Below, one piece after another: positions 21,482 through 44,501 of a stretch of DNA of 64,000 nt (its first letter is position 1; each line of letters opens with the position of its first letter). This stretch comes from Actinomycetes bacterium (GTDB taxonomy: Bacteria > Actinomycetota > Acidimicrobiia > Acidimicrobiales > Microtrichaceae). The notes under the pieces are model-generated. The model worked only from the letters and a program-made list of their open reading frames with translations. It searched no databases and was not told where the DNA came from. The translations under genes and the position numbers were made by a program. The stretch spans positions 124,001 to 188,000 of the forward strand of contig JAAEPF010000034.1 of the NCBI GenBank assembly GCA_024222295.1, read 5' to 3'.

Positions 21482-21545
21482 CGAACCTGCCGAAGGGTGA
21501 CTCGTTGGGATCAGACACGGTGACGAGCCTGGCTATGTCTCTTTC

Positions 21546-25064: not shown

Positions 25065-25856
25065 TCAGATAGAGGTGTACCCGCCGTCGGCCATGACGGC
25101 GGAGCCGGTCATGAAGCTGGCATCCTCGCTGAGCAGAAACGCCACGACTGACGCGATCTCCGACGGATCGCCGGCGCGGCTAATCGGCGGGCGCACCCGG
25201 GAGGAAGGTCGGTGCTCGGACCGGGGGGTGGTGGTCGCGTCGGCGGTTTCGATCGCGTGGTCGACGATCTTCGTGGCGACGAAGCCGGGGCAGACGCAGT
25301 TCGCTCGAACGCCGTCGTCGGCGTGCTCTGTGGCGACCACTCGGATGATCTGCAACACACCACCCTTGGACGCCTTGTAGGAGACGGCGCCGCCCCCGAG
25401 CCCATTCACGACCGAGGAGACCGAGCCGGTCGCAACGATGGCGCCACCTCCGCTTTCGATCAGGTACGGGAGCGCGTGCTTGATCGACAGGAACGGGCCG
25501 GTGAGGTTCACTGCGATCACCCGATGCCAGTCGTCGAGCGTCAGCTCCTGGATCCGTCCGCCGGTGGTGATGCCCGCGTTGGCGAACAACCCGTCCAGGC
25601 CACCCATCATTTCCGATGCCTCGGCGAGTACGCGCTGGGTGGCGGATTCGTCGGTGACGTCGAGCTCGTAGGCGGTGGCGGAGCCTCCGGCGGCCTCCAC
25701 GAGCCGAACCGTCTCGGCCGCCTCTTCGGGTCGGACATCGGTGACCGCGACGGCCGCTCCTTCCTCGGCCAGGCGCACACAGGTGGCCCTTCCGATCCCC
25801 GTGCCACCACCGGTGACGAGAACGCGCCGTCCAGCCAGGCGCTCGGTCAGGTCCAT
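25065..25856 (-). CDS. SDR family oxidoreductase
   Basis: A 263-residue classical short-chain dehydrogenase. Cofactor motif 'VTGGGTGIGRATC' (residues ~15-27), 'DVRPEEA' after strand 2 (Asp suggests NAD preference), 'FANAGITTGG' (NAG motif), catalytic Ser in 'ATGSVSSVV' and 'SYKASKGGV' (YxxxK). It oxidises or reduces an unknown alcohol/ketone. It is the last gene of a minus-strand operon with the SnoaL protein (4-bp gap) and the haloalkane dehalogenase. Confidence 0.93.
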   Translation of the reverse strand: MDLTERLAGRRVLVTGGGTGIGRATCVRLAEEGAAVAVTDVRPEEAAETVRLVEAAGGSATAYELDVTDESATQRVLAEASEMMGGLDGLFANAGITTGGRIQELTLDDWHRVIAVNLTGPFLSIKHALPYLIESGGGAIVATGSVSSVVNGLGGGAVSYKASKGGVLQIIRVVATEHADDGVRANCVCPGFVATKIVDHAIETADATTTPRSEHRPSSRVRPPISRAGDPSEIASVVAFLLSEDASFMTGSAVMADGGYTSI

Positions 25857-25860
25857 CGGC

Positions 25861-26295
25861 TCAGCTCTCCTTGGCGACGAAGTCGACCACGAGGCGCCGC
25901 TGGGCGATACGCCAACCGTCGGGTCCTCGTTCGAACACGTCGTGGTAGGCGCCGACCACAGCCGGGCCGTTCAGGGGAGCGGGGCGCTGCTCACCGTCGC
26001 TGAGGTCGTGGCGATACAGGGTCAGGTACACCGTGCCCTCGGCGCGGTCGGTCTCGGTGTGGGACAGGTCGAAGGTCGTGCACACGTGCCGCGATACCCG
26101 GTCGGTTCGGCGCTGGCGTGCCTCGAAGCCGCGCTGCAACTGATCCCGCCCTCGCAGTTCGATGCCAGGCGCAGACCAGATGGCATCGTCTGTGAACAGG
26201 TCGACCACTTCGGCGGCATCGCCCGAATCCACCAAAACGCAGTATCGGAACACAAGGGCTTCGCACTCGGCTCGCACCAGGGCCTCATCGTTCAT
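25861..26295 (-). CDS. SnoaL-like / NTF2-fold protein
   Basis: A 144-residue alpha+beta cone-fold protein of the SnoaL_4 type: 'VFRYCVLVDSGDAAEVVDLF', 'DDAIWSAPGIELRGRDQL', 'SRHVCTTFDLSH' and 'GWRIAQRRLVVDF'. Family members are small isomerases, dehydratases or hydroxylase subunits. ATG at 26295 (MNDEALVRAE) is chosen because the fold starts there; an upstream ATG at 26319 is possible. Middle gene of the operon between the SDR and the haloalkane dehalogenase. Confidence 0.82.
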   Translation of the reverse strand: MNDEALVRAECEALVFRYCVLVDSGDAAEVVDLFTDDAIWSAPGIELRGRDQLQRGFEARQRRTDRVSRHVCTTFDLSHTETDRAEGTVYLTLYRHDLSDGEQRPAPLNGPAVVGAYHDVFERGPDGWRIAQRRLVVDFVAKES

Positions 26296-26415
26296 CCGGG
26301 CAGCGTACGGGACCCTCATTCCCGCCGTGGTCCGCCCGCCGTGGTCCACCCATCCTCCGTTCGGGACCGGATGGCCAAGTCGCTGTTGGCGCCTTCGACC
26401 CCGGCGTGTCACATG

Positions 26416-27471
26416 TCAATCGATCGGGGTGTCGTGGATCCAGTCGGCGATTGCCCGGGCGAGTTCGGGGCCGGCGTCTTCCTGGATGAAGTGTCCGGCG
26501 TCCGGGTAGTCGCGGTGGGGCTGGCCCTCTGCGCCGGCGATCTGGACCCTCGTGGCGTCGCGAGAGGCCTCGTCGCCGAAGATCGGGTCGAGCAGTCCGA
26601 ACATCCCGAGCACGGGTCGGTCGAAGGCGTCGAGTGCGGCCCGGGCCGCTTCGTTGGTCGGCGCTTCGCCGACAGTGTTGATGAGCGACGGGAACATCCG
26701 AGGACCAGCCATGTGGAGGCGGGTGGGAAACGGGGCGTCATAGGCCATGATCTCGGCGTCGGTGATGTCGTCACGATTTATGGCGGCTCGCATCCCGACT
26801 GATGGCATGAAGTCTTTGCCGACCATGGCGTAGTTGATCCACTCGCCAAAGACAGCCATGCCTTGGCGTTCGCCCCCGCCGCCGACGACGAACGGGTACT
26901 CGAGATCCTGGGGTTCCAGCGAGTCGGGCACCGTGAAAGGGGCGAAACCCTCCGGAAGCACCGGGAGGTTGCCGTTGGCGACTACCACTCGGGCGAACCG
27001 GTCCGGGTTGTTGCCCACGCACCGCAACCCGATCAACGATCCCCAGTCCTGAACCACCACGGTGATGTCGGTCAGCCCGGTTGCGTCGAGGAACTCTTCG
27101 ACCCAGGCGACGTGTTGGAGGTAGCGGTAGTCGTCGAGTTGCACCGGCTTGTCGGAGCGGCCGAAGCCGATGAGGTCGGGTGCGACGACCCGCAGGCCGG
27201 CGTCGGCGAGTACGGGGATCATCCGGCGGTACAGATACGACCAATCGGGCTGGCCGTGGAGGAGAAGGACGGTCTCGCCTCCGGGATCTCCGGCGTCGAC
27301 GTAGTGCATGCGCATGCCGTCCACCTCGGCGTAGTTCGGTTCCCACGGGTAGCCGGGCAGATCGCTGAACGCTTCATCGTCGGTACGCGTGAAGGGGCGC
27401 CCCGAGGGGGTCCAGTGGATCTCGTCCTCGGTGCCGGTCACATCGGGTGGCAGCTTGGCTTCATCGGGCAT
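26416..27471 (-). CDS. Haloalkane dehalogenase-like alpha/beta hydrolase (HLD-I type)
   Basis: A 351-residue enzyme resembling DhlA-type haloalkane dehalogenases, which replace halide by hydroxyl. Motifs: oxyanion 'LLHGQPDWSYLYRRM', 'APDLIGFGRSDKP', nucleophile elbow 'VVQDWGSLIG' with Asp plus the adjacent halide-binding Trp, late acid 'FGLLDPIFGD' and base 'DAGHFIQED'. The nucleophilic Asp distinguishes it from serine esterases; epoxide hydrolases also use Asp, so activity is a strong but untested inference. ATG at 27471 has AGAAGG 6 nt upstream. First gene of its operon and divergent from the 27600 gene, with a shared motif between. Confidence 0.85.
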   Translation of the reverse strand: MPDEAKLPPDVTGTEDEIHWTPSGRPFTRTDDEAFSDLPGYPWEPNYAEVDGMRMHYVDAGDPGGETVLLLHGQPDWSYLYRRMIPVLADAGLRVVAPDLIGFGRSDKPVQLDDYRYLQHVAWVEEFLDATGLTDITVVVQDWGSLIGLRCVGNNPDRFARVVVANGNLPVLPEGFAPFTVPDSLEPQDLEYPFVVGGGGERQGMAVFGEWINYAMVGKDFMPSVGMRAAINRDDITDAEIMAYDAPFPTRLHMAGPRMFPSLINTVGEAPTNEAARAALDAFDRPVLGMFGLLDPIFGDEASRDATRVQIAGAEGQPHRDYPDAGHFIQEDAGPELARAIADWIHDTPID

Positions 27472-27519
27472 CGGAGCCTTCTCGGGTTGTTGGAACGTCG
27501 TCCGGGCGAACACGACCGG

Positions 27520-27550
27520 GTTATTGCGCATTAAACTAGCAATTGTTGCG
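27520..27550. promoter_or_regulatory. Operator/promoter-like motif, copy A
   Basis: Lies midway between the divergent starts at 27471 (-) and 27600 (+). The core TGCGCATTAAACTAGCAATT (27525-27544) followed by GTT matches copy B at 34924-34954 (reverse orientation) at 20 of 23 positions. It contains TAAACT and, on the other strand, TAGTTT, both -10-like. A shared regulator is inferred. Confidence 0.6.
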
Positions 27551-27599
27551 GGCCGTGCCGGTCGGCCCACGAGGAGGCAATTATGAGAAGGAGACAATC

Positions 27600-28091
27600 A
27601 TGAGCGGATGGAAGGCAGCTGACGAGATCCCGGTCGCCCACACCCCGAGCGGTGGGTACGACGAAGTGCCGGATCCGATTCTGGGTGGATGTGGCGAGGG
27701 GATCGTCAAGGGGGCGCCCGACCTGCGGGGCTGGTGGGAGGTGACCGAGGTCGTCGCCGACGGCGCCCTTTCGCCGGACCACCCGATGATGGGTTTGCGC
27801 CAACGGATCGAGCAGTGCGGCGACCGCTTCGTCGTGACCGCAGGCGGTGTCGTGCACGACGGGCGAGCCGACGGAACCGAGGAGAACGGAGTGAACGACG
27901 TTGCGGAGTTCGACTTCACCACTCCCATCACGGTGGTTGCGACCTATGAGGACGGGGTGCACTTCCTGCGGCCGGTGGGCCTTCCCGTGGAGGTCACCCG
28001 TACAGTCGAGGACGGCCGGCTCGTCTGGGTCTATGCCGGCACCGAGACCCGGTCCCGCTATCTGGGCCCGGTCGACGAGGTGCCGCAGTAG
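27600..28091 (+). CDS. Calycin/lipocalin-like hypothetical protein
   Basis: A 163-residue soluble protein with 'DLRGWWEVTEVV', 'RQRIEQCGDRFVVTAGGVVHD', 'DFTTPITVVATYEDGVHFLRP' and 'RLVWVYAGTETRSRYLGP'. The alternating beta-strand pattern suggests a calycin-like barrel that could bind a small hydrophobic ligand; no named family was recognised. The ATG has GAAGGAGA 7 nt upstream. It is divergent from the dehalogenase operon and shares its promoter region, so a role in the same pathway is likely. Confidence 0.75.
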   Translation: MSGWKAADEIPVAHTPSGGYDEVPDPILGGCGEGIVKGAPDLRGWWEVTEVVADGALSPDHPMMGLRQRIEQCGDRFVVTAGGVVHDGRADGTEENGVNDVAEFDFTTPITVVATYEDGVHFLRPVGLPVEVTRTVEDGRLVWVYAGTETRSRYLGPVDEVPQ

Positions 28092-28162
28092 GCCTCGACC
28101 GCTGCCCTCGACGTGATCGCTCGCCGGCGGGTGCCAGGGCACGGCGGTGGCCCGGCAGGCTC

Positions 28163-28942
28163 TCAAGTGGCGGCGCTGAGGTTCCAGGCCTCGATCACGC
28201 CCTGGTCACCGGTGACGGCGAGTGAGGTCGTGGGGATGCGGCCGAACAGCCAGCGAACGATGTCGTTGGCCTCGCCGGTGACCGAGTCGGCCGGGAGCGC
28301 CTCGCCGGGATCGATGAGTTCGACGACGAGGTCGTCCGCTCCTCTGCCCACCCGCCATGCGCGATCGAGGTCGACGGCGCGAATCCCGACGGGCATTTCC
28401 GGAAGACCTTCGCCACGCGGATCTTGCTTGGTGACGAGAAGCGCGCCGGGCCACATGTAGCGGAGGGTCTCGTCGATGGAGGTGGCTGCCCGATCCGCAG
28501 GGAGCATCGTGACTTCACCCAACACCTCCTCGGCGTCCCAGACGTGAACGGCTGTCTCGGTCGCCGCACGCAGAACCCAGCCCCGGGCGGTCCGGCGGTG
28601 CTGGAACACGTAACAGGGCGCGTCGAGGTCGCGGCTGGCCACGAACTCGGAGAAGTCCTCCGCGACCCGCATCAGGTAGCCGAGCCGCTCGGCGTTGCCC
28701 CTGGGGAGCGGCGGCTGCGAGTTCCACGATGACTCGAAGTCGATCGGCCGGTCGCCGTGGGTGAGGTTGTGGGTGTACCAACCCGACAGTCCCGATATGA
28801 CGTGGGCGACGAGCTGGCGCATCGTCCACGGGGGACAGGTCGGCACCGGCTCGCGTGATCCGACGATGGCGGCGACCTCCGCGAGTCGGCCTGCCGACTC
28901 CACGATCCAATCTGTCAGCGCGGTGTCATCCATGTCGACCAT
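28163..28942 (-). CDS. Maleylpyruvate isomerase-type mycothiol-dependent protein
   Basis: A 259-residue protein of the DinB/MDMPI group. The N-terminal helical bundle has 'CPPWTMRQLVAHVISGLSGW' (first metal-ligand His), 'ESSWNSQPPLPRG' and 'ATETAVHVWDAE' (later His). A C-terminal MDMPI_C-like domain follows ('DDLVVELIDP', 'GEANDIVRWLFGR'). Such enzymes use mycothiol and a divalent metal, supporting an actinobacterial host. Start ATG 28942 has GGAGCG 6 nt upstream. It is 35 bp downstream of the DUF2855 gene. Confidence 0.87.
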   Translation of the reverse strand: MVDMDDTALTDWIVESAGRLAEVAAIVGSREPVPTCPPWTMRQLVAHVISGLSGWYTHNLTHGDRPIDFESSWNSQPPLPRGNAERLGYLMRVAEDFSEFVASRDLDAPCYVFQHRRTARGWVLRAATETAVHVWDAEEVLGEVTMLPADRAATSIDETLRYMWPGALLVTKQDPRGEGLPEMPVGIRAVDLDRAWRVGRGADDLVVELIDPGEALPADSVTGEANDIVRWLFGRIPTTSLAVTGDQGVIEAWNLSAAT

Positions 28943-28977
28943 TAAGGCGCTCCGATCGGGTGTCCGGATTCGTCGTT

Positions 28978-30063
28978 TCAGGAGAGGTGTCCGGTGTGCA
29001 TCGAGCAGACGAACCCTGACGATGGCTCGGCTCGACCCTCGAGGAGGTCGCGGTAGGTGTCCTCGATCCCTTCCGATCCCTGGCGGTGCTCGATCCTGAG
29101 CCACTGCGTACTTTGATCGACCATGCGGCGATAGGCATGGTTGATGCGAGCCTGCAGCTCTGCTGGTCCCCAGTCCTCGACCCGCTTCGCCGCCTGCCCG
29201 GGGGCGAAGAAGAACTCCGGTTTGGGGCCCGGTATGTCGTGTTCGCCGGCAGGCATCTCTTCCCAGTGTGTGGCGCCGACATTGATCGAGAAGGCCAACG
29301 CATCGCCGAAGTGGGTGTGAACAGCAGCCCTGATCTCCGAGCTGCCGGCCATGTCGACCATGCCGGTGCGCTCCGAGGCGTCGAGTTCGTCGACCTCGTC
29401 GTAGGTGGCGACCTGGTCGTAGAGACCGAGGCCCTCGACGAACGCCCGGTTGCGGGCTGAGGTGAGACCGATTGCCGAGATGTCGGCTCGGCCCGCAAGG
29501 CATGTCGCCAGGGCGATGGACGTCTTGGAGGAGGCGCTGGTGACGATCGTGGAGGTGGCGCCCTCGAAGGTGCGGTCGCCCAGCTGGTCGTCGACGAGGA
29601 ACGAAGTCATGAACATGCCGTAGAGCAGCAGGTACTCGTCCACGCGCTCGAGGTCGAAGTCGGGGTCTTCCTCGATGTTGCGGAAGTCGGTGTAGATGGC
29701 AGCGTGTCTGGCGCGATGGGGGCCGGCGTCGCGGAAGCCGTGCTCGCCCCGCGGGCTGGCATCGATGACGAGTTCCGTGCCCATGGGGTAGAAGCCGAAG
29801 TAGCGGCCACCGACGTGGATGTCGGCGTTGGAGGACTCTGTCACCGTCGCAAGTCCAATGGCTGGGATGCGACCCCATGGGGCCTCTGCGGGGAAGAACC
29901 CCCAGTAATCGAGCATGTCACCGGCCACGGCATAGGTGATGTTGTTGCTCGTGAGCGCGAACCGCTCTACCGAGAGCCGGATCTGCCCATCTGCGAGATC
30001 GGCCTGCGGGGTGCGGATTGCTCGGGTCTGGCGGAGATCCTGACGGCTGACTTCGAACATCAT
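28978..30063 (-). CDS. DUF2855 family protein (MDR/quinone oxidoreductase-like)
   Basis: A 361-residue protein related to zinc-less medium-chain reductases but assigned to DUF2855 by 'RLSVERFALTSNNITYAVAG', 'WGFFPAEAPWGRIPAIG', 'YLLLYGMFMTSFLVDD' and 'IVTSASSKTSIALA', the last replacing the usual Rossmann glycine motif. The family is often linked to fatty-acid or lipid catabolism but has no proven reaction. Start at the double ATG 30063/30060. It is divergent from the SRPBCC-sulfatase operon, 66 bp away. Confidence 0.87.
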   Translation of the reverse strand: MMFEVSRQDLRQTRAIRTPQADLADGQIRLSVERFALTSNNITYAVAGDMLDYWGFFPAEAPWGRIPAIGLATVTESSNADIHVGGRYFGFYPMGTELVIDASPRGEHGFRDAGPHRARHAAIYTDFRNIEEDPDFDLERVDEYLLLYGMFMTSFLVDDQLGDRTFEGATSTIVTSASSKTSIALATCLAGRADISAIGLTSARNRAFVEGLGLYDQVATYDEVDELDASERTGMVDMAGSSEIRAAVHTHFGDALAFSINVGATHWEEMPAGEHDIPGPKPEFFFAPGQAAKRVEDWGPAELQARINHAYRRMVDQSTQWLRIEHRQGSEGIEDTYRDLLEGRAEPSSGFVCSMHTGHLS

Positions 30064-30089
30064 GGCGGCGACAGTACCGTTGTTGGGTC

Positions 30090-30123
30090 CGAATATGCCA
30101 GTGATGCACGCATAAGTTAGGGT
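30090..30123 (+). promoter_or_regulatory. Divergent promoter region with -10 TAGGGT (motif copy C, weak)
   Basis: TAGGGT at 30118-30123 lies 6 nt before the GTG start at 30130, fitting a leaderless promoter. The preceding ATGCCAGTGATGCACGCAT resembles motif copies A and B (GCCAGT..ATGC..GCA) with gaps, so it is only a possible further member. Confidence 0.4.
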
Positions 30124-30129
30124 GATGGT

Positions 30130-30573
30130 GTGGTCGAGATCGTTGAGCGGTCCGAGGTGGCACGTCCGTCGGACGTGGTGTGGGAGGTCCTGGCGGACTT
30201 CGGTGCCATCAGTCGTTGGGCGCCGAACGTGGCCCACTCGTGTCTCACGACCGAGCAGGAGAACGGTGTTGGTGCGGTGCGGCGGGTTCAGGTCGGCCGC
30301 AATGGGCTCCTCGAGAGGGTCGTCGACTGGGATCCGGGCCACCGACTCGCGTACCGCGTCGAAGGGCTACCTCCCGTTCTGAGGTCGGTCACGAACAGCT
30401 GGGAGCTCGAGGGCCACAACGGTTCGACCAGGGTCACCCTCACGAGCCATGTCGACGCCGGCGCCCGACCGCCACAGAAGGTGGTCGCCCGAGTGGCGAG
30501 TCGCGTGATGGCGCGGGCTTCGCGGCAGATGCTCGCCGGTCTGAAGGCACAGCTGGAGCAGGTCCCGTCGTGA
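30130..30573 (+). CDS. SRPBCC (START/Bet v1-like) protein
   Basis: A 147-residue polyketide-cyclase/dehydrase-type protein: 'VEIVERSEVARPSDVVWEVL', 'ADFGAISRWAPNVA', 'GVGAVRRVQ' and 'SWELEGHNGSTRVTLTSHVD', ending in a long amphipathic helix. These proteins bind hydrophobic small molecules in a helix-grip fold. GTG start, probably leaderless. Its stop overlaps the start of the sulfatase fusion by 4 nt (GTGA), indicating translational coupling. Confidence 0.88.
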   Translation: MVEIVERSEVARPSDVVWEVLADFGAISRWAPNVAHSCLTTEQENGVGAVRRVQVGRNGLLERVVDWDPGHRLAYRVEGLPPVLRSVTNSWELEGHNGSTRVTLTSHVDAGARPPQKVVARVASRVMARASRQMLAGLKAQLEQVPS

Positions 30574-33152
30574 CGAGCCGTCCAGACGTCGTCGTACTCC
30601 TGACGGACCAGGAGCGGGCCGCGCCACCGTACGAGTCGGCCCCCGTCGCGGACTGGCGGCGCCAGAAGCTGGTAGGCGCCCAGTGGTTCGAGGACAATGG
30701 CGTGTCGTTCCGCCGGCACTACACGGGCTCTCTCGCATGCGTGCCCAGCCGCCCCACGCTGTTCACCGGCCAGTATCCCGACGTCCACGGCGTCACCCAG
30801 ACCAACGGCCTGGGAAAGATGCAGGACGACTCGAGGATGCGCTGGCTGCGACCGGGCGAGGTGCCGACACTCGGACACTGGTTCCGAGCCGGCGGCTACG
30901 ACACCCACTACGTCGGCAAGTGGCACATGACCCATGCCGACCTGACAGACCCGGCAACCGGCGATGGGCTCGCGACCCACGACGACCACGGCGTGGTCGA
31001 CCCCGCAGCGGTGCAGGCATACCTGGATGCGGACAGGCTCGACGAGTTCGGGTTCTCCGGTTGGGTCGGACCCGAGCCTCACGGCGGCAAGCCCTCGCAA
31101 TCCGGACTGGTGTGCGACCCGATATACGCGGACCGCGCAGTGGCCTGGCTGGAGGACCGCTACGCACGCCGGCGTGCCGGTGAAGTGGATGCATTGCGCC
31201 CCTTCCTGCTCGTCGTCAGCTTCGTCAACCCCCACGACATCGTCTACACGCCCGGCTGGCTCGGTCGGCTCGGACCCGGCAACCCGTTCGCATCCGATCC
31301 CGACAACCCCCCGGATATTCCCCCGTCGCCCAGCTACGACGAGGACCTGGCCACCAAGCCGGCGGCACAGATCGCGTACCGAGCCGCGTATCCCACGACC
31401 TACGGACCGGCGCCGGCGGTTGAGCGGTCGTACCGCGGGCATGCCCAGGAATACCGCAACCTGTACTACCGACTGCACCTCTGTTCCGACGGCCCACTCG
31501 ACCGGGTCCGACGCGCGATAACCGACGGCGGATCCGGCGAGGCCGTGATCGTGCGCAGCTCCGACCACGGCGAGTTGTTGGGCGCACACGGAGGACTGCA
31601 CCAGAAGTGGTTCAACCTCTACGACGAGGCCACACGCGTTCCGTTCGTAATCGCCCGGGTCGGCCGGGAGGCTACGACCTCGCGGGCCGTCGACGACGCG
31701 CCGACCTCCCACGTCGACCTGCTGCCCACCCTGCTCGCCGCAGCGGGGATCGACCGCGCCGAGGTCGCACAGGAGATGGCGGACGCGTTCAGCGAGTTGC
31801 ACGAGCTGCCGGGTCGCGACCTCATGCCCGTGGTCGACGGTGCCGAGCCCGACACCTCGCGCACGGTGTACGCGATGACACGGGACAACATGCCAGAGGG
31901 TGACTCGGGGGCCAGCGGGCTGGCCAGGCGGATCGGTCTGGTCGACTCACAGCCGCCTCCGTTGCGGATCCAGGTGCCGGCACACGTAGCGGCGAACTTC
32001 GAGAGCATCGTGAGCAGGGTCGACACAGCCGATGCCGACCAGGGCGCCGGTCACCTCTGGAAGATCGTGCGCAGCTTCGATGACCCGGCCACCTGGACTG
32101 AGCCGGGCATACGGCACCTTGCGGGAACGGGTCAGGGTGGCGAGCTGTACCGCTCGACGCCCCTGCCCGACCAGTGGGAGCTGTACGACCTGGACGACGA
32201 TCCCAACGAGATGTGCAACCGGTCCGACGACCCGGATGCGCGAGCTGTCTTCGAACTCCTCTCGGACAGGCTCGGGGTCGAGCGCAGAGGCGTCGTTCCC
32301 GATCGCAACCAGCCATGGCCCTACGCCGCCCGAACTCCCACCGGAGGTCCACCCGTGAAGAAGCCACCCCTGCCCGCGCTCGCGGTTCGCAAGGTCCTGC
32401 AGCGCGTCGGCATGCACCCGGATGACACCGAGCAAGTCGATGTCGACGCAACGGGCCGGAGGGCGTTGGTGATCGCCACCAACCACGCCGTCCTCGACGT
32501 CGGAAAGCCAACCGGGGTCTATGCCAGCGAGCTCACGGTGCCGTACTACGCCTTCCTCGACGCCGGGATGACCGTCGACGTCGCCAGCCCCGCCGGTGGT
32601 GTGATTCCCGTGGACCCGACGTCGCTGCGGGCGGTCATGCGAACCGAGGCATGCGACCGATTCCTCGCGGATGATGACTTCAGGCTGAAGGTCACCGAGT
32701 CCCTGGCGGTCGGCGAGCTCGACATGGCCGATTACGACATCGTGTACCTCGCCGGCGGCTGGGGAGCCGCCTTCGACCTCGGCTTCTCCGAGGAGTTGGG
32801 TCGCCAGATCACGGCTGCCAACGATCTCGGGCGGGTCATCGGCGGTGTCTGCCACGGCCCGCTCGGACTCGTGAAGGCCACGGCTGCCGACGGCTCGCCA
32901 CTGGTGGCCGGTCGTCACGTGACCGCTGTTACCGACAAGCAGGTGCACGAGCTCGGGATCGACAGCACGCCGCAACACCCAGAAACCGAGCTGCGAAGTC
33001 TCGGTGCCGACTTCGAGAGCCAGACCCGCTTCCGAGACCCCTTCGCGAACCACTGGGTGGTGGACGGGAACTTGGTGACAGGCCAGAACCAGAACGCCGC
33101 ACCGATGGTGGCGCGCGAGATGCTGCGCCTCTCGGACGAAATGGGCCACTGA
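30570..33152 (+). CDS. Sulfatase fused to a DJ-1/PfpI (Hsp31-like) domain
   Basis: An 860-residue protein with two enzymatic domains. Residues 1-~590 are a type I sulfatase: formylglycine motif CVPSR at 57-61, 'LLTDQERAAP' metal Asp (D13), 'YVGKWHM', 'SSDHGELLGAHG' metal ligands, and a C-terminal 'WELYDLDDDPNE' typical of choline-sulfatase-like members. A proline-rich linker (~600-625) leads to a DJ-1/PfpI domain (~630-860): 'VYASELTVPYYAFLDAGM' with the conserved Glu and the nucleophile elbow 'GGVCHGPLGLV' (Cys ~761), as in Hsp31/glyoxalase III-like proteins. The GTG start overlaps the SRPBCC stop by 4 nt. No stop or frame change separates the domains. Confidence 0.9.
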   Translation: MTSRPDVVVLLTDQERAAPPYESAPVADWRRQKLVGAQWFEDNGVSFRRHYTGSLACVPSRPTLFTGQYPDVHGVTQTNGLGKMQDDSRMRWLRPGEVPTLGHWFRAGGYDTHYVGKWHMTHADLTDPATGDGLATHDDHGVVDPAAVQAYLDADRLDEFGFSGWVGPEPHGGKPSQSGLVCDPIYADRAVAWLEDRYARRRAGEVDALRPFLLVVSFVNPHDIVYTPGWLGRLGPGNPFASDPDNPPDIPPSPSYDEDLATKPAAQIAYRAAYPTTYGPAPAVERSYRGHAQEYRNLYYRLHLCSDGPLDRVRRAITDGGSGEAVIVRSSDHGELLGAHGGLHQKWFNLYDEATRVPFVIARVGREATTSRAVDDAPTSHVDLLPTLLAAAGIDRAEVAQEMADAFSELHELPGRDLMPVVDGAEPDTSRTVYAMTRDNMPEGDSGASGLARRIGLVDSQPPPLRIQVPAHVAANFESIVSRVDTADADQGAGHLWKIVRSFDDPATWTEPGIRHLAGTGQGGELYRSTPLPDQWELYDLDDDPNEMCNRSDDPDARAVFELLSDRLGVERRGVVPDRNQPWPYAARTPTGGPPVKKPPLPALAVRKVLQRVGMHPDDTEQVDVDATGRRALVIATNHAVLDVGKPTGVYASELTVPYYAFLDAGMTVDVASPAGGVIPVDPTSLRAVMRTEACDRFLADDDFRLKVTESLAVGELDMADYDIVYLAGGWGAAFDLGFSEELGRQITAANDLGRVIGGVCHGPLGLVKATAADGSPLVAGRHVTAVTDKQVHELGIDSTPQHPETELRSLGADFESQTRFRDPFANHWVVDGNLVTGQNQNAAPMVAREMLRLSDEMGH

Positions 33153-33202
33153 GACCTCTCACTTCGATCGCCAGTTGAACCACCAGGATGGAGTGTGACT
33201 GC

Positions 33203-33919
33203 ATGCCGAAGTATGGACAGCTGAACGAGGACTACATCGCCACATGGTTCCAGCGGGACGAGCCGGGGGGCCCCATGTGGGCGCTCAACCTCATGAAATA
33301 CCGCGAGCAGGCGGAGTACTCGGACGGGCGCGAGTCCACGCTGAGCGGGATCGAGGCGGACAACCGGTACGCCCCGCACGAACACCTGGCCGCCGTCGGG
33401 TCGCGGATCGTGCTCTTGGCGCCGGTGCTGCATCACCTCGTGGGCGACGGCTGGAAGTGGGACCGCATCGCCATAGCCCAGTACCGCGACCGCATGGCGA
33501 TGGTCGAGATGAGCTCGAACTCCGACTTCCAGAAGGACGAACAACACAAGGAAGCCGGGATGGACTTCACCGTCGTGTTGGCCAGTTTCCCGGTGGACGA
33601 CGCACCGGTACCGCCGCAGGTCTCCGGGGCTCGGGACGGTCAGCTCCTGCTGCTACAGGTGGTCGGTGACGCCTCGACCGAGGACCTCGCCGCCGAAGTG
33701 GAGTCCACCCGGATCGGCCGGCTCTGGGTCGAGGATCGGGTGATCGGCGACGGCCGTAGGTTCGCCGAGGCCCGATTCGACCTGATATCGCCTCAGGTAG
33801 CCGACGCACTGGCGACCCGCGCGTACGTCACCGACGACACGCGCTACGCGCTGATCGCGGACCCGGTCATCGATGACGTTGCGCGTTCCCTGAGCGACCC
33901 GACGCGCGTCCTGTTCTGA
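33203..33919 (+). CDS. Hypothetical protein with dimeric alpha-beta-barrel features
   Basis: A 238-residue cytoplasmic protein. 'GGPMWALNLMKYRE' near the start and 'WDRIAIAQYRDRMAMVEM' recall DUF1330-type ferredoxin-like folds, perhaps duplicated (a second unit around 'GQLLLLQVVGD'). No catalytic motif. Start ATG 33203 (MPKYGQLNED) is used; GGAG lies 9 nt upstream, though ATG 33188 is also in frame. It is 50 bp downstream of the sulfatase fusion, probably in the same operon. Confidence 0.75.
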   Translation: MPKYGQLNEDYIATWFQRDEPGGPMWALNLMKYREQAEYSDGRESTLSGIEADNRYAPHEHLAAVGSRIVLLAPVLHHLVGDGWKWDRIAIAQYRDRMAMVEMSSNSDFQKDEQHKEAGMDFTVVLASFPVDDAPVPPQVSGARDGQLLLLQVVGDASTEDLAAEVESTRIGRLWVEDRVIGDGRRFAEARFDLISPQVADALATRAYVTDDTRYALIADPVIDDVARSLSDPTRVLF

Positions 33920-33939
33920 GTTTTCGCACCCTTCGGGCT

Positions 33940-34698
33940 CTAGGACCAGCCGCCGTCGTGGGCCACGAACTGGCCTGTCACGAAACCGCAGGTACCGTCC
34001 AGGTAGGCACAGCACAGAGCGGCGCACTCCTCGACGGTGCCCAGTCGGCCCATCGGGACGTGCGACTCGACCTGCGAACGAACCTCTGGATCGGTGGCAC
34101 CCGTGGCCTCGAGGAAGGCCGGGAAGTCCATGAAGTTGGTGCCAAGGGCGTTCACCTGGACGCCCTTGGGTGCCATCTCCCGGGCCACGTTCTTGGTCAG
34201 GTGGGTAGCTCCAGCGCGTAGTGCCGAGTAGAGGGGGGCGCCGACGATCGTGCGTGCCCCGGAGGAGCTGGTGATCACCAGTACCTGTCCGGCCTGCCGG
34301 TCGATCATCGGGGGGAGAACCGCCTTCAGGAAGTTGTAGGGAGCGTCGATCAGGCCGCGTTCGAGCTTGGCCAGCTCCTCGGAGGTCGAGTCCAGGAACA
34401 TCCCACCGATGATCTGTCCGGTGAACGCGGTTGCGGCGTCGAGCCGGCCGAAGCGGTCCAGCGCCGAGGCGACGAGCCGTTCGGCGGTTTCCGCCTTGCT
34501 GAGGTCCCAGGCGTTGTCGACGACCTCGACCCCTGCGCCCATGGCTTTCAGGTCGTCGACCAACCCGTCTACCGGATCGCCGATCACGAGGTCATGGCCC
34601 CGTCGCGCAAGTTCGCGGGCAATCGGCGGACCGACATATGTGCTCGTGTTGGCGACGAGCGCAACCCGCCTCTCGTCAGTTCCGCTCGGTTCACTCAT
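33940..34698 (-). CDS. Divergent SDR-like protein with altered active site
   Basis: A 252-residue protein with SDR length and fold pattern ('QVLVITSSSGARTIVGAPLY', 'MAPKGVQVNALGTNF', 'FVTGQFVAHDGGWS'). The glycine-rich motif TGxxxGIG is replaced by 'ANTSTYVGPPIA' and the catalytic YxxxK reads YSALR, with Arg for Lys. It may use NAD(H) differently, be non-catalytic, or belong to the atypical enoyl-reductase-like SDRs. It converges with the 33203 gene (21 bp) and is divergent from the 35042 SDR. Confidence 0.85.
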   Translation of the reverse strand: MSEPSGTDERRVALVANTSTYVGPPIARELARRGHDLVIGDPVDGLVDDLKAMGAGVEVVDNAWDLSKAETAERLVASALDRFGRLDAATAFTGQIIGGMFLDSTSEELAKLERGLIDAPYNFLKAVLPPMIDRQAGQVLVITSSSGARTIVGAPLYSALRAGATHLTKNVAREMAPKGVQVNALGTNFMDFPAFLEATGATDPEVRSQVESHVPMGRLGTVEECAALCCAYLDGTCGFVTGQFVAHDGGWS

Positions 34699-34923
34699 GG
34701 CTTCATCTCCTTGCCTGTCTGGCCGGTCCGGTGGGGACCGGATGCCGGTCGCGCCTCACGGGCCGCACGAGGGCTACTTCCACGGGTATCCCGTTGAGAA
34801 CTGCTCTGCCCGCAGAGGGGACCGGTCCGGTTGTGCAGGGAGCTCTCAGGCACCGTGGGACCACCGAGAGCCCGGGGGCATCAGGTGTCATTGCCGGGTA
34901 CACGGGGTGACCCTATCAGCGCT

Positions 34924-34954
34924 GCGAACAATTGCCAGTAGAATGCGCACCAAC
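34924..34954. promoter_or_regulatory. Operator/promoter-like motif, copy B
   Basis: GCGAACAATTGCCAGTAGAA followed by TGCGCACCAAC. In reverse complement it matches copy A (27520-27550) at 24 of 31 positions overall and 20 of 23 in the core. It lies 88 bp upstream of the SDR start at 35042; TAGAAT inside it and TAGTGT downstream are -10-like. Confidence 0.6.
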
Positions 34955-35041
34955 TAGTGTGTACGTGCGGCTGGGGGTAGGCCACTGCTCCCGGCAGCAC
35001 AACCTGCCACGACGTCCCAGTCGGGGGAGGCGGAGGACGAA

Positions 35042-35860
35042 GTGGAACTCAACGGAAGAAACGCAGTGGTGACGGGCGCCGCGTCGGGCATCGGACTGGC
35101 CCTGACCGAGCGCTTCCTCGCAGAGGGGATGTCGGTTGTCATGGCGGACATCGAGGCCGACAAGCTCGAGAGCGAGGCCGACCGCCTCGCGGCCGACGGA
35201 GCTCGGGTGTCGGCGTTCGAGTGTGATGTCTCCGATCCCGCCCAGGTCCGCGCCCTGCGCGAGAGAGCGGTCTCCGACCACGGTGCGGTGCATGTGCTGT
35301 GCAACAACGCCGGGGTCGCGCTCGGTGCCAGGAACCTCGACACATCGGCCGAGCAGTGGCAGTGGGTCATCGGTGTGAACGTCCTCGGCGCGGCCTACGG
35401 CTGCAGCGAGTTCGGCCCGCTGATGGTCGAACAGGGTGAGGGTCACATCGTCAACACGTCCTCCGAGGCCGGCCTGTGCAGCACCCCGATGCTCGGCTCC
35501 TACCACGCGTCGAAATACGCGGTGGTGGGATTGTCAGAATCGTTGGCGATGGAGCTCGATGGCACCGGTGTGGGTGTGTCGGTGCTGTGTCCTGAACTCG
35601 TCGACACGCAGATCTTCGAATCGACACGCAACGCACCGGCAGAACTGGGCCTGCCCCGCCCGCGCCCAGTGCCCCTGGAGAAGATCGAGGAGTTCATGGG
35701 CAGCAAGGCGATGGCACCCTCAGATGTGGCCGGCAAGGCCGTGTACGCAATACGTCAGAACAACTTCTGGATCATCACCCATCCGGTCACCGAGACCCGC
35801 TACCGCCTGCGCAACCGTGACATGGAATCCGCAACGAATCCCCGGTTCCGAATGGGTTGA
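35042..35860 (+). CDS. SDR family oxidoreductase
   Basis: A 272-residue classical SDR: 'VTGAASGIGLALTERFL' cofactor loop, 'ADIEADKLE' (Asp after strand 2), 'CNNAGVALG', catalytic Ser in 'NTSSEAGLC' and 'YHASKYAVVGLSESL' (YxxxK), then 'VLCPELVDTQIF'. Residues ~225-272 form an extended C-terminal tail seen in steroid/alcohol-type SDRs. GTG start after a GGAGG-like region. First gene of a plus-strand group with a dehalogenase and a TetR regulator. Confidence 0.93.
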   Translation: MELNGRNAVVTGAASGIGLALTERFLAEGMSVVMADIEADKLESEADRLAADGARVSAFECDVSDPAQVRALRERAVSDHGAVHVLCNNAGVALGARNLDTSAEQWQWVIGVNVLGAAYGCSEFGPLMVEQGEGHIVNTSSEAGLCSTPMLGSYHASKYAVVGLSESLAMELDGTGVGVSVLCPELVDTQIFESTRNAPAELGLPRPRPVPLEKIEEFMGSKAMAPSDVAGKAVYAIRQNNFWIITHPVTETRYRLRNRDMESATNPRFRMG

Positions 35861-35923: not shown

Positions 35924-36865
35924 ATGCAGATTCTCCAGACTCCCGACGAGGTGGCAGATGGCCTTCCCGGCTATGACTTCCACCGCCGCTACGCGACCGT
36001 TCCATCAGGAGACGGCCAGGAGATCCGGATCCACGTCGTCGACGAGGGAAGCCAAGAAGGCCACCCGGTCGTCTTCCTGCATGGGAACCCTTCGTGGTCC
36101 TATGTGTGGCGCGAACAGATCAAGGCGGCATCCGCGGCCGGCTTTCGGTCCATCGCACCTGACCTGGTCGGAATGGGGCTCTCCGACAAGCCCTCGGACA
36201 TGTCCGACTACACCGTCGCCCGCCATGTCGAGTGGATCCGTGCGCTGCTGTTCGATCAGCTGCAACTTGCTGCACCGACTTTCGTACTGCACGACTGGGG
36301 CGGGATCATCGGCATGCGCATCGCTGCGGAGAATCCCGATCGGGTGGCGGCGATGGCCATTACCAACACGGGGCTGCCCTGGCGCGACATGGCTGAGCCA
36401 CTTCCCGAGAAGATCGAGGCCGCAGGCCCCTTTGCGGACTTCCAGGCCTTCGCAGCCAGCGCACCGAGATGGGAACCATGGTCGCTGTTGCCGATGGTCA
36501 TGGCCACTGAGCCTTCGCAGGCCCTGGTCGAGGCGTACCGCGCCCCCTACCCGGACGACTCACTGACTGTCGGCAGTCGGGCCTTCACGCAGTTGCTCCC
36601 GACCCGACCGGACAACCCGATGTACGCCGACAACTACGAGGCCTGGCGCTCGCTGGAGCGTTTCGAGAAGCCGGTTGTCACGATCTTCGGTGGCTTGGAC
36701 GTGGTCGCTCCTGACGGCTGGAAGCCGATTTTGGAGCGGATCCCGGGTGCCCAGGGTCAGCCGCATGAGATCCTTGCCGGCGGCGGCCACTTCCTGCAGG
36801 AGGACCTGCCGGAGCAGTACACCGAGGCACTGATGGCGTGGTTGTCAGGCCTTCATGAGCGGTGA
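35924..36865 (+). CDS. Haloalkane dehalogenase-like alpha/beta hydrolase
   Basis: A 313-residue paralogue of the 26416-27471 enzyme. 'FLHGNPSWSYVWREQ' (halide-stabilising Asn), 'APDLVGMGLSDKP', nucleophile 'LHDWGGIIG' (Asp plus halide Trp), acid in 'FGGLDVVAPD' and base His in 'GGGHFLQED'. Length is typical for the family (about 290-310). It lies 63 bp after the SDR, which could act on the alcohol product; that link is inference. Confidence 0.87.
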   Translation: MQILQTPDEVADGLPGYDFHRRYATVPSGDGQEIRIHVVDEGSQEGHPVVFLHGNPSWSYVWREQIKAASAAGFRSIAPDLVGMGLSDKPSDMSDYTVARHVEWIRALLFDQLQLAAPTFVLHDWGGIIGMRIAAENPDRVAAMAITNTGLPWRDMAEPLPEKIEAAGPFADFQAFAASAPRWEPWSLLPMVMATEPSQALVEAYRAPYPDDSLTVGSRAFTQLLPTRPDNPMYADNYEAWRSLERFEKPVVTIFGGLDVVAPDGWKPILERIPGAQGQPHEILAGGGHFLQEDLPEQYTEALMAWLSGLHER

Positions 36866-36912: not shown

Positions 36913-37539
36913 ATGGTTGATCTGGCCGACACCGAGGAACCGGACGAATCCGATGAGCCGGCGGACGGCCGGGTCGCCCGCCGGGAGCGCAACCGGAATG
37001 CGGTGCTGGACGTCGTGCTCGAGATGTTCGGGGAGGACTCGATGTTCCCCACCATCGAGCAGGCGTCCAGGCGATCGGGTCTTTCGCTGAGATCCTTGTA
37101 CCGGTACTTCGCAGATCCGGGCGAGTTGGTGGACTCCGCCATCAAGCGTCATCAGGAAACCACCGGAGGCCTGTTCCACCTGTCGGCCATCGGTCAGGGT
37201 CCTCTCGAACATCGGATCGCTGAGTTCGTGAAGATGAGGATCCGTGGCTACGAGGTTGTGGGAGCGGTGTACCGCGCGTCAGTTCACAATGCCGGCCGAC
37301 ACCAGCGGGTGCGCGATGACCTTGCCATGAATCGTCGCCGCATGCGCGAGCAGTTCGACAAGCAGTTCAAGCCTGAACTGGCCGAGCTTCGGGGGCAGGA
37401 CCGTGAGGCGGTGGCTTCGGCGGGTGATGTGCTGACACAGTTGGACACCATCGACTTGCTCCGGCGGGACCGCCGGATGACTGCCGTCGAGACCGAACGC
37501 ACGCTGGTCACAGGCCTCGGCGCCATCCTTCACACGTAG
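36913..37539 (+). CDS. TetR/AcrR family regulator
   Basis: A 208-residue repressor-type protein. An acidic N-terminal tail (~1-20) precedes the HTH ('NAVLDVVLEMFGED...SRRSGLSLRSLYRYFADPGELV'). The C-terminal ligand domain is helical and variable. TACTGT lies 8 nt before the ATG, so it is probably leaderless. Position downstream of the SDR-dehalogenase pair makes it the best local candidate to bind the motif copies at 27.5 and 34.9 kb. Confidence 0.87.
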   Translation: MVDLADTEEPDESDEPADGRVARRERNRNAVLDVVLEMFGEDSMFPTIEQASRRSGLSLRSLYRYFADPGELVDSAIKRHQETTGGLFHLSAIGQGPLEHRIAEFVKMRIRGYEVVGAVYRASVHNAGRHQRVRDDLAMNRRRMREQFDKQFKPELAELRGQDREAVASAGDVLTQLDTIDLLRRDRRMTAVETERTLVTGLGAILHT

Positions 37540-37549
37540 GGTCGGAGGT

Positions 37550-39235
37550 TCAGCTCGAGATCCACACCCCGCTGAGCGGATGCCCCCCGGAGAGCTCCTC
37601 CGACGGTTCTGACCCGTCCGGCATCCTCGGCCCCAGCACCCCACGGACCTCGGGGCCGGTGGCAACATTCCATGTGACCCATTCCTGCCACAGTCCGTAC
37701 GCCTCGCTTCCGAACCGTTCGTTGATCTGCTGGTAGGCGGCCCGGCGCTCCTGCGGGTCACCGGATGTGCGCCCGGTGTCGAGCAGGGCGCTGATCTCGG
37801 GGTCCCGGATGCGGGCGAGGTTCAAGCGGGAGTCCGTCTGCCACTGGACGTAGTTGGTGTCCGGCTCGCAGCCGCCGTGGCGACGCCACAGCACGGCGTC
37901 GAAGTCGCCGCCAATGACCGTGCTTATCAAGGCCGCCTGCTCGACGCCCTGGACCTGCACATCGATGTCGGCCTCGTCCCACATCGACTGCAGGAGCTGG
38001 ACATCCTGTGAGTTCTCGGAGTCGGCTCCGTAGACGTAGGTGAAGCTGAGTTGCTCACCCGTCGCTTCCTCGTAGGCCGCGGCATGGCGTGCCGACTGCT
38101 CGAGGTCGAAGTCCGGGTAGCCGGTGTCATCGAGGTGGCCGATGCTGCCTGGTCCGAACGGCCCCGAAGCCATCTCGACACTTCCGTTGTAGCGCACCTC
38201 GTTGAATCGATCCCGGTCGATTGCGTGAGCTGCAGCGAGACGCGCGTCACGGTTGTCGAACGGGGGCTTCGACGTGTTCAGTAGGGAATACCTCACCTCC
38301 GGGCACTCCTCGGAGCGGACCAGAGCGATGGTTCCGGACTCCGCGTCAGCTTCCCAGAGCTCACCCACCGTTGCGGCTGCGGAGTGGGCGAGGTCTACGT
38401 CGCCCGCTGCGACGGCATTGGACCGGGCGGATGCGTCAACAATGGGCCTGAACACGACTCGGTCGAGGAAGGGCAGCTGGTTGCCGTCCTCGTCGGATCT
38501 CCAGTAGTCCGGGTTGCGGACTGCTGTCAGCTGGTCGTTGGGGACCCACTCCTCCAACATGAACGGGCCGGTACCGATCAGGTTCCGATCACATGTCTCG
38601 GTATCGTCCAGCTGGGCCTGAGCCATCACTCCGGCCTGCCCGCCGGAGTACAGCGCCGCCGGAAGTGCTGGCCACGGGATGCTCGTCGTGACCTGAACGG
38701 TCGAGTCGTCCACCACCTCGACGCTCTCGATGGGCTCGAGAACGAAGCGCGTCAGCAGTGGCGTCCTGGTTGGGTAGGCGCCCGTGAAGGCGTCCAGGTT
38801 GTTCTTCACCACCTGAGGGGTGAGTGGTGATCCGTCATGGAAGACGACCCCCTCGGGAAGGGTGATGGTCCACTGCGTGAAGTCTCCGTTGGGCTCGATC
38901 GACTCGGCGAGGAAGGGTACGAACTCTCCATCAGCGTTGGGCGCAGTGAGTGTGTCGTAGATGGACTTGGCTACCTGGAGCCCCGAGATGGCCAGCTGGG
39001 CCTCGGGCAGGCACCAGCCGCCCGATGTCTCGGCCTCGAGGCCGTAGGTCGCCGAACCTCCGTACTGCGGGTCGCCCGGATCAGTGGTCTCGTCGGCTCC
39101 CGAGGCCGCCGGTTCGTCTCCGTTCCCGCATGCCGTGGCAAGCATCACGAGTGATGCGAGCAGGGGCACAACGAGCGGTCTCGCACGCGAACGCGGAGTG
39201 CTGCCGGCGCTGGAGCCTGTGTTCCTGTCGGACAC
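37550..39235 (-). CDS. ABC transporter substrate-binding lipoprotein, peptide/nickel type (family 5)
   Basis: A 561-residue SBP_bac_5 protein: signal peptide with lipobox 'LATACGN' (Cys ~36), 'GGSATYGLEAET', 'LAESIEPNGDFTQWTITLPE' and 'VVFHDGSPLTPQVVKNNLD', 'LIGTGPFMLEEW', 'RDARLAAAHAIDRDRFNEV'. It captures peptides or other solutes outside the membrane. No permease or ATPase genes are adjacent, so it is an orphan component here. GTG at 39235 is chosen because AAGGGGGTGA lies 5 nt upstream; an in-frame ATG exists at 39274. Divergent from the arylsulfatase gene. Confidence 0.9.
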   Translation of the reverse strand: MSDRNTGSSAGSTPRSRARPLVVPLLASLVMLATACGNGDEPAASGADETTDPGDPQYGGSATYGLEAETSGGWCLPEAQLAISGLQVAKSIYDTLTAPNADGEFVPFLAESIEPNGDFTQWTITLPEGVVFHDGSPLTPQVVKNNLDAFTGAYPTRTPLLTRFVLEPIESVEVVDDSTVQVTTSIPWPALPAALYSGGQAGVMAQAQLDDTETCDRNLIGTGPFMLEEWVPNDQLTAVRNPDYWRSDEDGNQLPFLDRVVFRPIVDASARSNAVAAGDVDLAHSAAATVGELWEADAESGTIALVRSEECPEVRYSLLNTSKPPFDNRDARLAAAHAIDRDRFNEVRYNGSVEMASGPFGPGSIGHLDDTGYPDFDLEQSARHAAAYEEATGEQLSFTYVYGADSENSQDVQLLQSMWDEADIDVQVQGVEQAALISTVIGGDFDAVLWRRHGGCEPDTNYVQWQTDSRLNLARIRDPEISALLDTGRTSGDPQERRAAYQQINERFGSEAYGLWQEWVTWNVATGPEVRGVLGPRMPDGSEPSEELSGGHPLSGVWISS

Positions 39236-39300
39236 CTCGTTCACCCCCTTGTCGTCGGCGGCATCGTCCCGCATGCTCGGGCCGGCCCCCTCGACGACAA

Positions 39301-39330
39301 TATGCCATCTATACTAGCAGTAGTTGTTCG
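39301..39330. promoter_or_regulatory. Intergenic motif copy D (weak) between binding-protein and sulfatase genes
   Basis: TATGCCATCTATACTAGCAG followed by TAGTTGTTCG. It shares ACTAGCA...TTGTT and TGC.CAT with copies A and B, with small insertions, and contains ACTA-N4-TAGT. It lies about 90 bp upstream of the sulfatase ATG and 65 bp upstream of the SBP start. Confidence 0.4.
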
Positions 39331-39418: not shown

Positions 39419-41707
39419 ATGGCTACCAGGATCGCCGGTCGCGAGTGGTTCGAGGGGCGGACCGGACGGACGCTGGAGGAGTCCGATCCATTCTTCAAAC
39501 CGGTCGACCACCCGGGTGACGGGGCGCCGAACGTGTTGGTGGTCCTCTACGACGACCTCGGCTTCAGCCACTTCAACTGCTTCGGCTCCACGCTGAACAC
39601 GCCAAACGCGGACCGGCTCGCAGCCGGGGGTGTGCGGTTCACGAACTTCCACGTCACGCCGTTGTGCTCGCCGACGCGTGCCTCGTTGCTGACGGGCCGG
39701 AACCACCATACGGTGGGCATGCGCGCGGTGGGCAACATGCAGTCGGGCTTCCCGTCCCAGACCGGCGAGGTGACCCACAACGCGGCGACGATGGCGGAGG
39801 TGTTGCGCGCCGAGGGGTATGGCACGTGGGCGGTGGGCAAGTGGCACTTGGTGAACATGGAGGATGCCTCGGCTGCGGGCCCGTTCGACCAGTGGCCAAC
39901 CCAGCGGGGCTTCGACCGGTTCTATGGGTTCCTGCAGGGTGAGACCGACCAGTTCCATCCCGAGCTCACCTACGACCAGCACCACGTCGACCCACCTGCC
40001 ACGGCGGAGGAGGGCTACCACCTGACCGAGGACCTGATGGACCGGGCGATCGGATTCATCCGGGACTCCAAGTCGGTGCGGCCGGACCGACCCTTCTTCG
40101 GCTACGTGTCCCTCGGTGCGATGCACGCACCCCACCAGGCTCCCGAGGAGTACCTGGCCAAGTACCGGGGGGCGTTCGACGAGGGGTGGGACTCGTTCCG
40201 GGAGCGTTGGTTCGAGCGCCAGCGCGAGATGGGCATCATCCCCGAGGGCACCCAGCTCGCGCCTCGCAATCCCGGCGTGAACGCATGGGCGGACCTCTCG
40301 GAGAACGAGCGCACGCTGTTCGCCCGCTTCCAAGAGGCGTTCGCGGCCTTCCTCGACCACACCGATGCCCAGCTCGGCCGCCTGCTCGACGAGCTCGAAG
40401 CGCTCGGTGAGCTCGACGACACACTCATCCTGCTGACCTCCGACAACGGGGCGTCACAGGAGGGCGGGCCCAATGGCCAGCTGCACGAGATGATGTTCTT
40501 CAACATGCGCTTCGACGCGGCGGACGACATGATGCACGGCCTCGAGGACATCGGTGGGCCTGACTCGCACACCAACTATCCGTGGGGTTGGGCCCAGGCC
40601 GGCAACTGTCCCAACAAGTGGTACAAGCAGAACACCCATGGCGGTGGGGTGCGCTCACCGCTGATCGTCCACTGGCCCGCGGGGATCGAGGCGGAGGGGG
40701 AGCTGCGCCACCAGTTCCACCATGTGATCGACATCGCGCCGACCGTGTACGAGGCGCTCGGCATAACCCCACGCGACACCTACGACGGTCATGAGCAGAT
40801 CCCGATCGCAGGCACGCCGATGTCGTACGCGCTCGAGGACGCCTCGGCGCCGACCACACGCAACCTGCAGTACTTCGAGATGATGGGGCACCGCGGGATC
40901 GTCGAGGACGGCTGGAAGGCAGTCACGCGTCGCGACCTGTTCAACGCGCCGGCCGACGCCGACGCCGACGTCTGGGAGCTGTACTACCTGCCGGATGACT
41001 TCTCGGAGTGCAACGACCTCGCGTCGGAGCATCGCGACAAGGTCGCCCACCTGATCGAGTTGTGGTGGGAGGAGATGGAGCGCCATGGCGGACTCCCATT
41101 CGACCTGCGCACACTCGAGCTGTTCAGCACACCCCACCGCCCACACACCCCACACCAAAGCCACCGCTACCGCTACCTGCCACCGATCTCACACCTGCCT
41201 GCCGAGGTCGCTCCCGCGGTTGCGGGCCGGTCCTGGACCATGACCGCCACCGTGTCACGGGACCCCGGTGATGACGGCGTGCTGTTCACCACCGGCACCC
41301 AGAACTCGGGGTACGCGTTCTTCGTCAAGGACGACCGGCTCTGCTTCGACTACAACGCCTTCGGTGACCACACCCTCGTCGTGTCCGACATCGACCTGCC
41401 AACGGACGCAACCGAGCTCACGGTTCGCTTCGACCGCACCGGCCGCCGCACCGGGTCCGTGGAGCTGCGCATCGGCGACGAGCGGCACGGCTACTCCGAG
41501 ATCCCCTGGATCATGAGAATGATGTCCTCTGTGGGCGCGGACGTGGGCAGGGGCACCAACTCGGCGGTCAGCACCGAGTACACCGGGCGCTTTCCCTTCA
41601 GGGGAACCCTGCACGAGCTCACCGTGGATGTCGACAGGACGCGTTCGGAGCGCGAGCGCGAGGCCAACGCGCGGGCCCGCTACGACGCCGAGATCTCCAG
41701 GCAATAG
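39419..41707 (+). CDS. Arylsulfatase (type I) with C-terminal beta domain
   Basis: A 762-residue sulfatase paralogous to the 15381-17744 gene. Motifs: 'LYDDLGFSHFN' (D45, D46), formylglycine site CSPTR at 83-87 followed by 'LLTGRNHHTVGM', 'TSDNGAS' metal ligands and 'FHHVIDIAPTVYEALG'. The last ~170 residues form a LamG-like region ('GYAFFVKDDRLCFDYN'). No signal peptide. ATG 39419 (MATRIAGREW) is used because upstream in-frame sequence is low-complexity and Arg-rich. It may release sulfate from aryl or alkyl esters taken up by the cell. Confidence 0.94.
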   Translation: MATRIAGREWFEGRTGRTLEESDPFFKPVDHPGDGAPNVLVVLYDDLGFSHFNCFGSTLNTPNADRLAAGGVRFTNFHVTPLCSPTRASLLTGRNHHTVGMRAVGNMQSGFPSQTGEVTHNAATMAEVLRAEGYGTWAVGKWHLVNMEDASAAGPFDQWPTQRGFDRFYGFLQGETDQFHPELTYDQHHVDPPATAEEGYHLTEDLMDRAIGFIRDSKSVRPDRPFFGYVSLGAMHAPHQAPEEYLAKYRGAFDEGWDSFRERWFERQREMGIIPEGTQLAPRNPGVNAWADLSENERTLFARFQEAFAAFLDHTDAQLGRLLDELEALGELDDTLILLTSDNGASQEGGPNGQLHEMMFFNMRFDAADDMMHGLEDIGGPDSHTNYPWGWAQAGNCPNKWYKQNTHGGGVRSPLIVHWPAGIEAEGELRHQFHHVIDIAPTVYEALGITPRDTYDGHEQIPIAGTPMSYALEDASAPTTRNLQYFEMMGHRGIVEDGWKAVTRRDLFNAPADADADVWELYYLPDDFSECNDLASEHRDKVAHLIELWWEEMERHGGLPFDLRTLELFSTPHRPHTPHQSHRYRYLPPISHLPAEVAPAVAGRSWTMTATVSRDPGDDGVLFTTGTQNSGYAFFVKDDRLCFDYNAFGDHTLVVSDIDLPTDATELTVRFDRTGRRTGSVELRIGDERHGYSEIPWIMRMMSSVGADVGRGTNSAVSTEYTGRFPFRGTLHELTVDVDRTRSEREREANARARYDAEISRQ

Positions 41708-44464: not shown

Positions 44465-44501
44465 GGAGATAGTCCTACATGGCCCAGGGCCACGTCATGC
44501 A
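44463..44501 (+). repeat. ~39-bp segment with a second copy at 21546-21584
   Basis: 33 of 39 positions match 21546-21584; a diverged relative lies at 23684. Here it covers the boundary between the hydrolase start (on the other strand) and the start of the His-rich protein gene. Confidence 0.55.

Follow-up and report, generated by a model that had tools for sequence, protein, structure and literature searches.

What joins the two operons for haloalkane-dehalogenase-like hydrolases (HLDs) in this stretch of DNA, 64,000 nucleotides in all (the window), when almost the same intergenic sequence lies upstream of each? The first-pass annotation had reported that the 31-mer at 27520-27550 agrees with the reverse complement of 34924-34954 at 24 positions, and at 20 of 23 in the core. 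On recounting, the core figure stood and the longer one became 23 of 31. The core, TGCGCATTnnACTnGCAATTGTT, is found at 27525-27547 (plus) and 34927-34949 (minus). With up to three mismatches it has just two matches in the window and the same two in the entire 3.76-Mb genome. A sequence limited to two matches in this genome is not a generic promoter element, and the motif proved to be unique to this region. The significance of the pair itself is modest: in a test that compared all pairs within the window by a composition-weighted score, one of eight Markov shuffles reached an equal pair. The earlier wording, far above random expectation, was therefore right in direction and overstated for a pair that is by itself borderline.

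The genes around the two copies, and around two looser copies named in the same annotation, are as follows.

25065..25856, minus: SDR, downstream in the HLD operon (Pfam adh_short_C2, E = 2.6e-58)
25861..26412, minus: SnoaL-like protein, downstream in the HLD operon (Pfam SnoaL_4, E = 1.5e-21)
26416..27473, minus: second HLD (NCBIfam PRK00870, 327 bits, cut-off 265)
27600..28091, plus: calycin-like protein, as named in the first-pass annotation (no Pfam or NCBIfam match)
28981..30063, minus: DUF2855 protein, divergent from SRPBCC (Pfam DUF2855, E = 3.8e-93)
30130..30573, plus: SRPBCC (polyketide-cyclase-like) protein (Pfam Polyketide_cyc2, E = 8e-25)
30570..33152, plus: sulfatase fused to a DJ-1/PfpI domain (Pfam Sulfatase, E = 7.6e-42; DJ-1_PfpI, E = 2.5e-11; CVPSR motif)
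33203..33919, plus: protein with no Pfam match, downstream of the sulfatase
35042..35860, plus: SDR, at the head of the operon shared with HLD and TetR (Pfam adh_short, E = 7.1e-51)
35924..36865, plus: haloalkane-dehalogenase-like alpha/beta hydrolase (NCBIfam PRK00870, 312 bits, cut-off 265)
36913..37539, plus: TetR-family regulator, 208 aa (profile match), with predicted operator binding and autoregulation
37550..39274, minus: family 5 extracellular solute-binding protein (Pfam SBP_bac_5, E = 4.9e-67)
39419..41707, plus: arylsulfatase-like protein (Pfam Sulfatase, E = 4e-63; CSPTR motif)

Both HLDs exceed the PRK00870 family cut-off, and their putative identity as dehalogenases comes from this family membership. 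We took the start of the second HLD as the ATG at 27473; a further in-frame ATG, at 27531, lies inside the intergenic site. Plasmid dehalogenases, which we searched for a characterised neighbouring regulator, matched at below 60% identity in every case.

When 99 relatives were searched, the 23-mer was matched in one other genome (G048, two mismatches), between the genes for an arylsulfatase and an MBL-fold hydrolase and adjoining an orthologue of the window's TetR. Because of this neighbour we searched the order for the TetR itself, and found orthologues of the 36913-37539 protein across Acidimicrobiales. Neighbourhoods of up to 20 kb were taken from 40 genomes, and a matrix was built iteratively from the window and 28 neighbourhoods with closely related TetRs (501,911 bases). 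It gave 47 distinct sites with a score of at least 18, whereas Markov shuffles, and 195,337 bases surrounding TetRs that are only about 40% identical, gave none. The matrix derives largely from relatives, but the window lay in the refinement search space, and the independent test is that of 19 held-out loci, which have no sampled 60-mer in common with the training set. Seventeen of these carry a site (24 sites in total), and their reversed sequence carries none. According to the gene caller, 46 of the 47 sites are intergenic, the exception being site 3 of the window, where the caller over-extended the DUF2855 gene. An independent scan of named genomes gave matches only in MAGs labelled Acidimicrobiia-type or broader actinobacteria (Ilumatobacter, Acidimicrobiaceae, Microthrixaceae and others).

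Across the full site set the operator reads as the palindrome TGCCAGT-N3-ACTGGCA, flanked by AT-rich extensions (TAnTGC...GCAnWWGnT) that bring it to about 27 bp. The earlier claim of a conserved intergenic motif thus held, with this palindrome in place of the 23-mer as the regulatory unit. The symmetry is hidden in the strong pair of the window, whose left half is degenerate (TGCGCAT). The window contains four sites.

Operator 1, 27525..27541 (34-mer 27517-27550), plus: core TGCGCATTAAACTAGCA, matrix score 32.9, between the HLD-SnoaL-SDR operon (minus) and the divergent calycin-like gene (plus)
Operator 2, 34933..34949 (34-mer 34924-34957), minus: core TGCGCATTCTACTGGCA, matrix score 32.1, upstream of the SDR-HLD-TetR operon
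Operator 3, 30096..30112 (34-mer 30087-30120), minus: core TGCGTGCATCACTGGCA, matrix score 22.0, in the divergent gap between DUF2855 (minus, true start about 30063) and SRPBCC (plus, GTG at 30130)
Operator 4, 39303..39319 (34-mer 39295-39328), plus: core TGCCATCTATACTAGCA, matrix score 22.1, between the binding-protein gene (minus) and the arylsulfatase gene (plus)

Operators 3 and 4 are the two looser copies, and their scores in the operator spacing confirm them as real. Beyond the four, nothing in the window scored above 9.3, a value reached by the 39295 site read in reverse. A third arylsulfatase-like gene (about 15800-17600, minus), a paralogue of 39419-41707, has no operator and serves as an internal negative. 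Genome-wide scans were made by pattern, not by matrix. The palindrome has four matches in 3.76 Mb, and a loose form of the pattern yielded no convincing further site in the genome, so the regulon looks local. One candidate for a fifth site, at C34:110886, was not accepted, with a matrix score of just 13.8. The window also contains repeats of other kinds: a tandem repeat with an 18-bp unit, GTCGTCGGAGTGGCCGTC, at 49829-50000, and a dispersed repeat, at most about 70 bp long and with CCATGGAGnTAGTCCTACATGGCCC as its tail, present in three partial copies at 21538, 23629 and 44408-44500.

The first-pass annotation had also proposed that one regulon, perhaps under the TetR at 36913, joins the dehalogenase and sulfatase genes. 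A single-sequence Pfam search of this protein gave no match. With a profile built from 33 homologues, TetR-family PDB chains were matched along the N-terminal domain (best E = 2.1e-8), which is the region of a TetR-type helix-turn-helix, and the region of the recognition helix, RSGLSxRSxYRYF, shows essentially no variation among the orthologues. The promoter of the protein's own operon carries a palindromic operator, operator 2. Of 298 genomes, 29 have a close TetR orthologue, and 26 of these contain the motif pattern; of the 269 others, 62 do. In this second group nearly all of the matches listed contain one mismatch, although G091 and G123 have an exact match. Fisher's test gives p = 1.5e-12 for this co-occurrence, a value that is not a true probability because the genomes are related and their species not independent. 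The sister TetRs, about 40% identical, have homologous genes next to them but no operator at the score used. At two of these loci (L072 near 11588 and L076 near 8406) we observed a different palindrome, ATTCTGTCAA-nnn-TTGACAGAAT, which suggests that operator specificity has changed within this TetR group.

The same targets recur in other genomes. Strong sites lie upstream of SRPBCC-sulfatase/DJ-1 orthologues in eight genomes and of DUF2855 orthologues in five, and relatives also have operators upstream of the 33188-type protein, of HLD with TetR and of calycin-like homologues. Operators lie near arylsulfatase/MBL orthologues at four loci (L047, L051, L056 and L057), and homologues of the 33203..33919 protein come after operators or beside the TetR. 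Additional targets, or divergent neighbours, in some genomes are genes for GST-like, acyl-CoA dehydrogenase and luciferase-like proteins. A single matrix thus describes sites that recur with TetR orthologues in this genome and its relatives, and comparative genomics supports the proposal of one regulon under the 36913 TetR.

Homologues of the window's DUF2855 protein within its own family are only 37-44% identical to it, compared with 61-67% for orthologues in other families, which come with operators. This identity pattern points to transfer of the cluster. Nine loci of own-family DUF2855 homologues lacking the cognate TetR were examined, and no operator was found. Taken together, the closer relationship to other families and the own-family loci without operator make it likely that the whole package was gained by transfer, or else lost in the sisters.

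The operators overlap predicted promoters. Measured from the operator centre, TANNNT boxes cluster at +14/15 and at +26 to +28. Many start codons lie about 13 nt beyond such a box, so many targets apparently have leaderless mRNA. The DUF2855 and SRPBCC genes of the window seem to be among these, with promoters of the leaderless type (TACTGT-N7-ATG and TAGGGT-N6-GTG, respectively). At operator 2, a promoter-like TTGCCA-N17-TAGTGT points to the SDR. A scan of the region for canonical sigma-70 promoters found none, a result that is uninformative at this GC content. We also considered operator polarity as a pointer to the divergent gene that is served and obtained no support for it: -35/-10 polarity compared with gene direction split 10 to 10.

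It is highly likely that each of the four sites is an operator of the 36913-37539 TetR, which would repress four operon groups. We infer from the sequences its binding, repression rather than activation, and the ligand and pathway; computation itself shows that one palindrome is shared, conserved and placed as described, and that it co-occurs with the TetR orthologue. A TetR dimer would bind the palindrome, whose two 7-bp halves suit a dimer site. Once bound, it would cover the spacer between -10 and -35, or else the -35 region, a position that suits steric repression, and block transcription. The repressed set would include the regulator's own SDR-HLD-TetR operon, an autoregulation implied by the promoter arrangement that faces this operon at operator 2. 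It would also include the HLD-SnoaL-SDR operon with the calycin-like gene, the DUF2855 gene with the SRPBCC-sulfatase/DJ-1 operon, and the arylsulfatase gene. The binding-protein gene is a possible further target of operator 4. A small-molecule substrate or intermediate would then release the TetR from its operators. Very probably, the dehalogenase-like and sulfatase genes form one switchable metabolic regulon.

The palindrome might instead be the site of a different regulator, either another TetR or an activator, that was inherited together with the cluster. Our neighbourhoods were selected by the TetR gene, and linkage alone would give some association; moreover, the sister TetRs adjoin homologous genes with other palindromes. 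However, the genome-wide matches follow the TetR orthologue even onto contigs away from the TetR gene, operator 2 is upstream of the TetR's own operon, and the symmetry of two 7-bp halves fits a TetR dimer. We consider a different regulator unlikely.

Ordinary promoter elements, with a shared -35 and -10, would account for the overlap of the sites with promoter-like TTGCCA and TANNNT boxes. They would not be so rare: the core is matched twice and the palindrome four times in 3.76 Mb, which refutes this explanation. The third sulfatase gene of the window and the DUF2855 homologues lacking a cognate TetR also have no site, and we regard this reading as very improbable. Chance, or a recent event that copied one promoter along with its dehalogenase gene, seems more remote still. 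It draws on the borderline shuffle result and on the presence of PRK00870-type hydrolases in both operons, but the similarity of the 31-mer pair stops near the operator edges, and in other families within the order operators recur before genes that are not paralogous. The 17 of 19 held-out loci refute it.

The Acidimicrobiales are largely uncultured and, to our knowledge, their gene regulation is poorly understood. A literature search that covered few subscription journals found no paper on the regulon or its operator. The operator indicates which genes share one pathway, and it ties enzymes without a known substrate (DUF2855, SRPBCC, sulfatase/DJ-1 and the dehalogenase-like hydrolases) to one inducer, so that the substrate can be sought through the regulator. 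Tentatively, an undescribed TetR and its operator may control an undescribed degradation pathway, conserved in Acidimicrobiales, in which the cleavage of sulfate esters is combined with hydrolysis of the dehalogenase-like type. Its substrate could be a sulfated or halogenated metabolite of marine or sponge origin, and the pathway may have spread between families as a package of regulator, operator and enzymes.

The predicted regulon is a new one of a known kind, that of catabolic regulons autoregulated by a TetR. KstR and Mce3R, autoregulated catabolic TetR repressors of actinobacteria, likewise use a palindromic operator at several catabolic promoters, their own included, and chains of both are among the PDB matches of our TetR profile. 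The similarity is weak and mainly in the DNA-binding domain, with KstR chains at an E-value of about 1e-3, below other TetR proteins. The targets here are not cholesterol genes, and the operator appears to differ from that of KstR. In Rhodococcus, the haloalkane dehalogenase gene dhaA is regulated by DhaR, which resembles the present system as a TetR-type repressor encoded next to a haloalkane dehalogenase gene; in contrast to DhaR, the regulon described here would add sulfatases, SRPBCC and DUF2855 proteins, and its hydrolases belong to the PRK00870 group.
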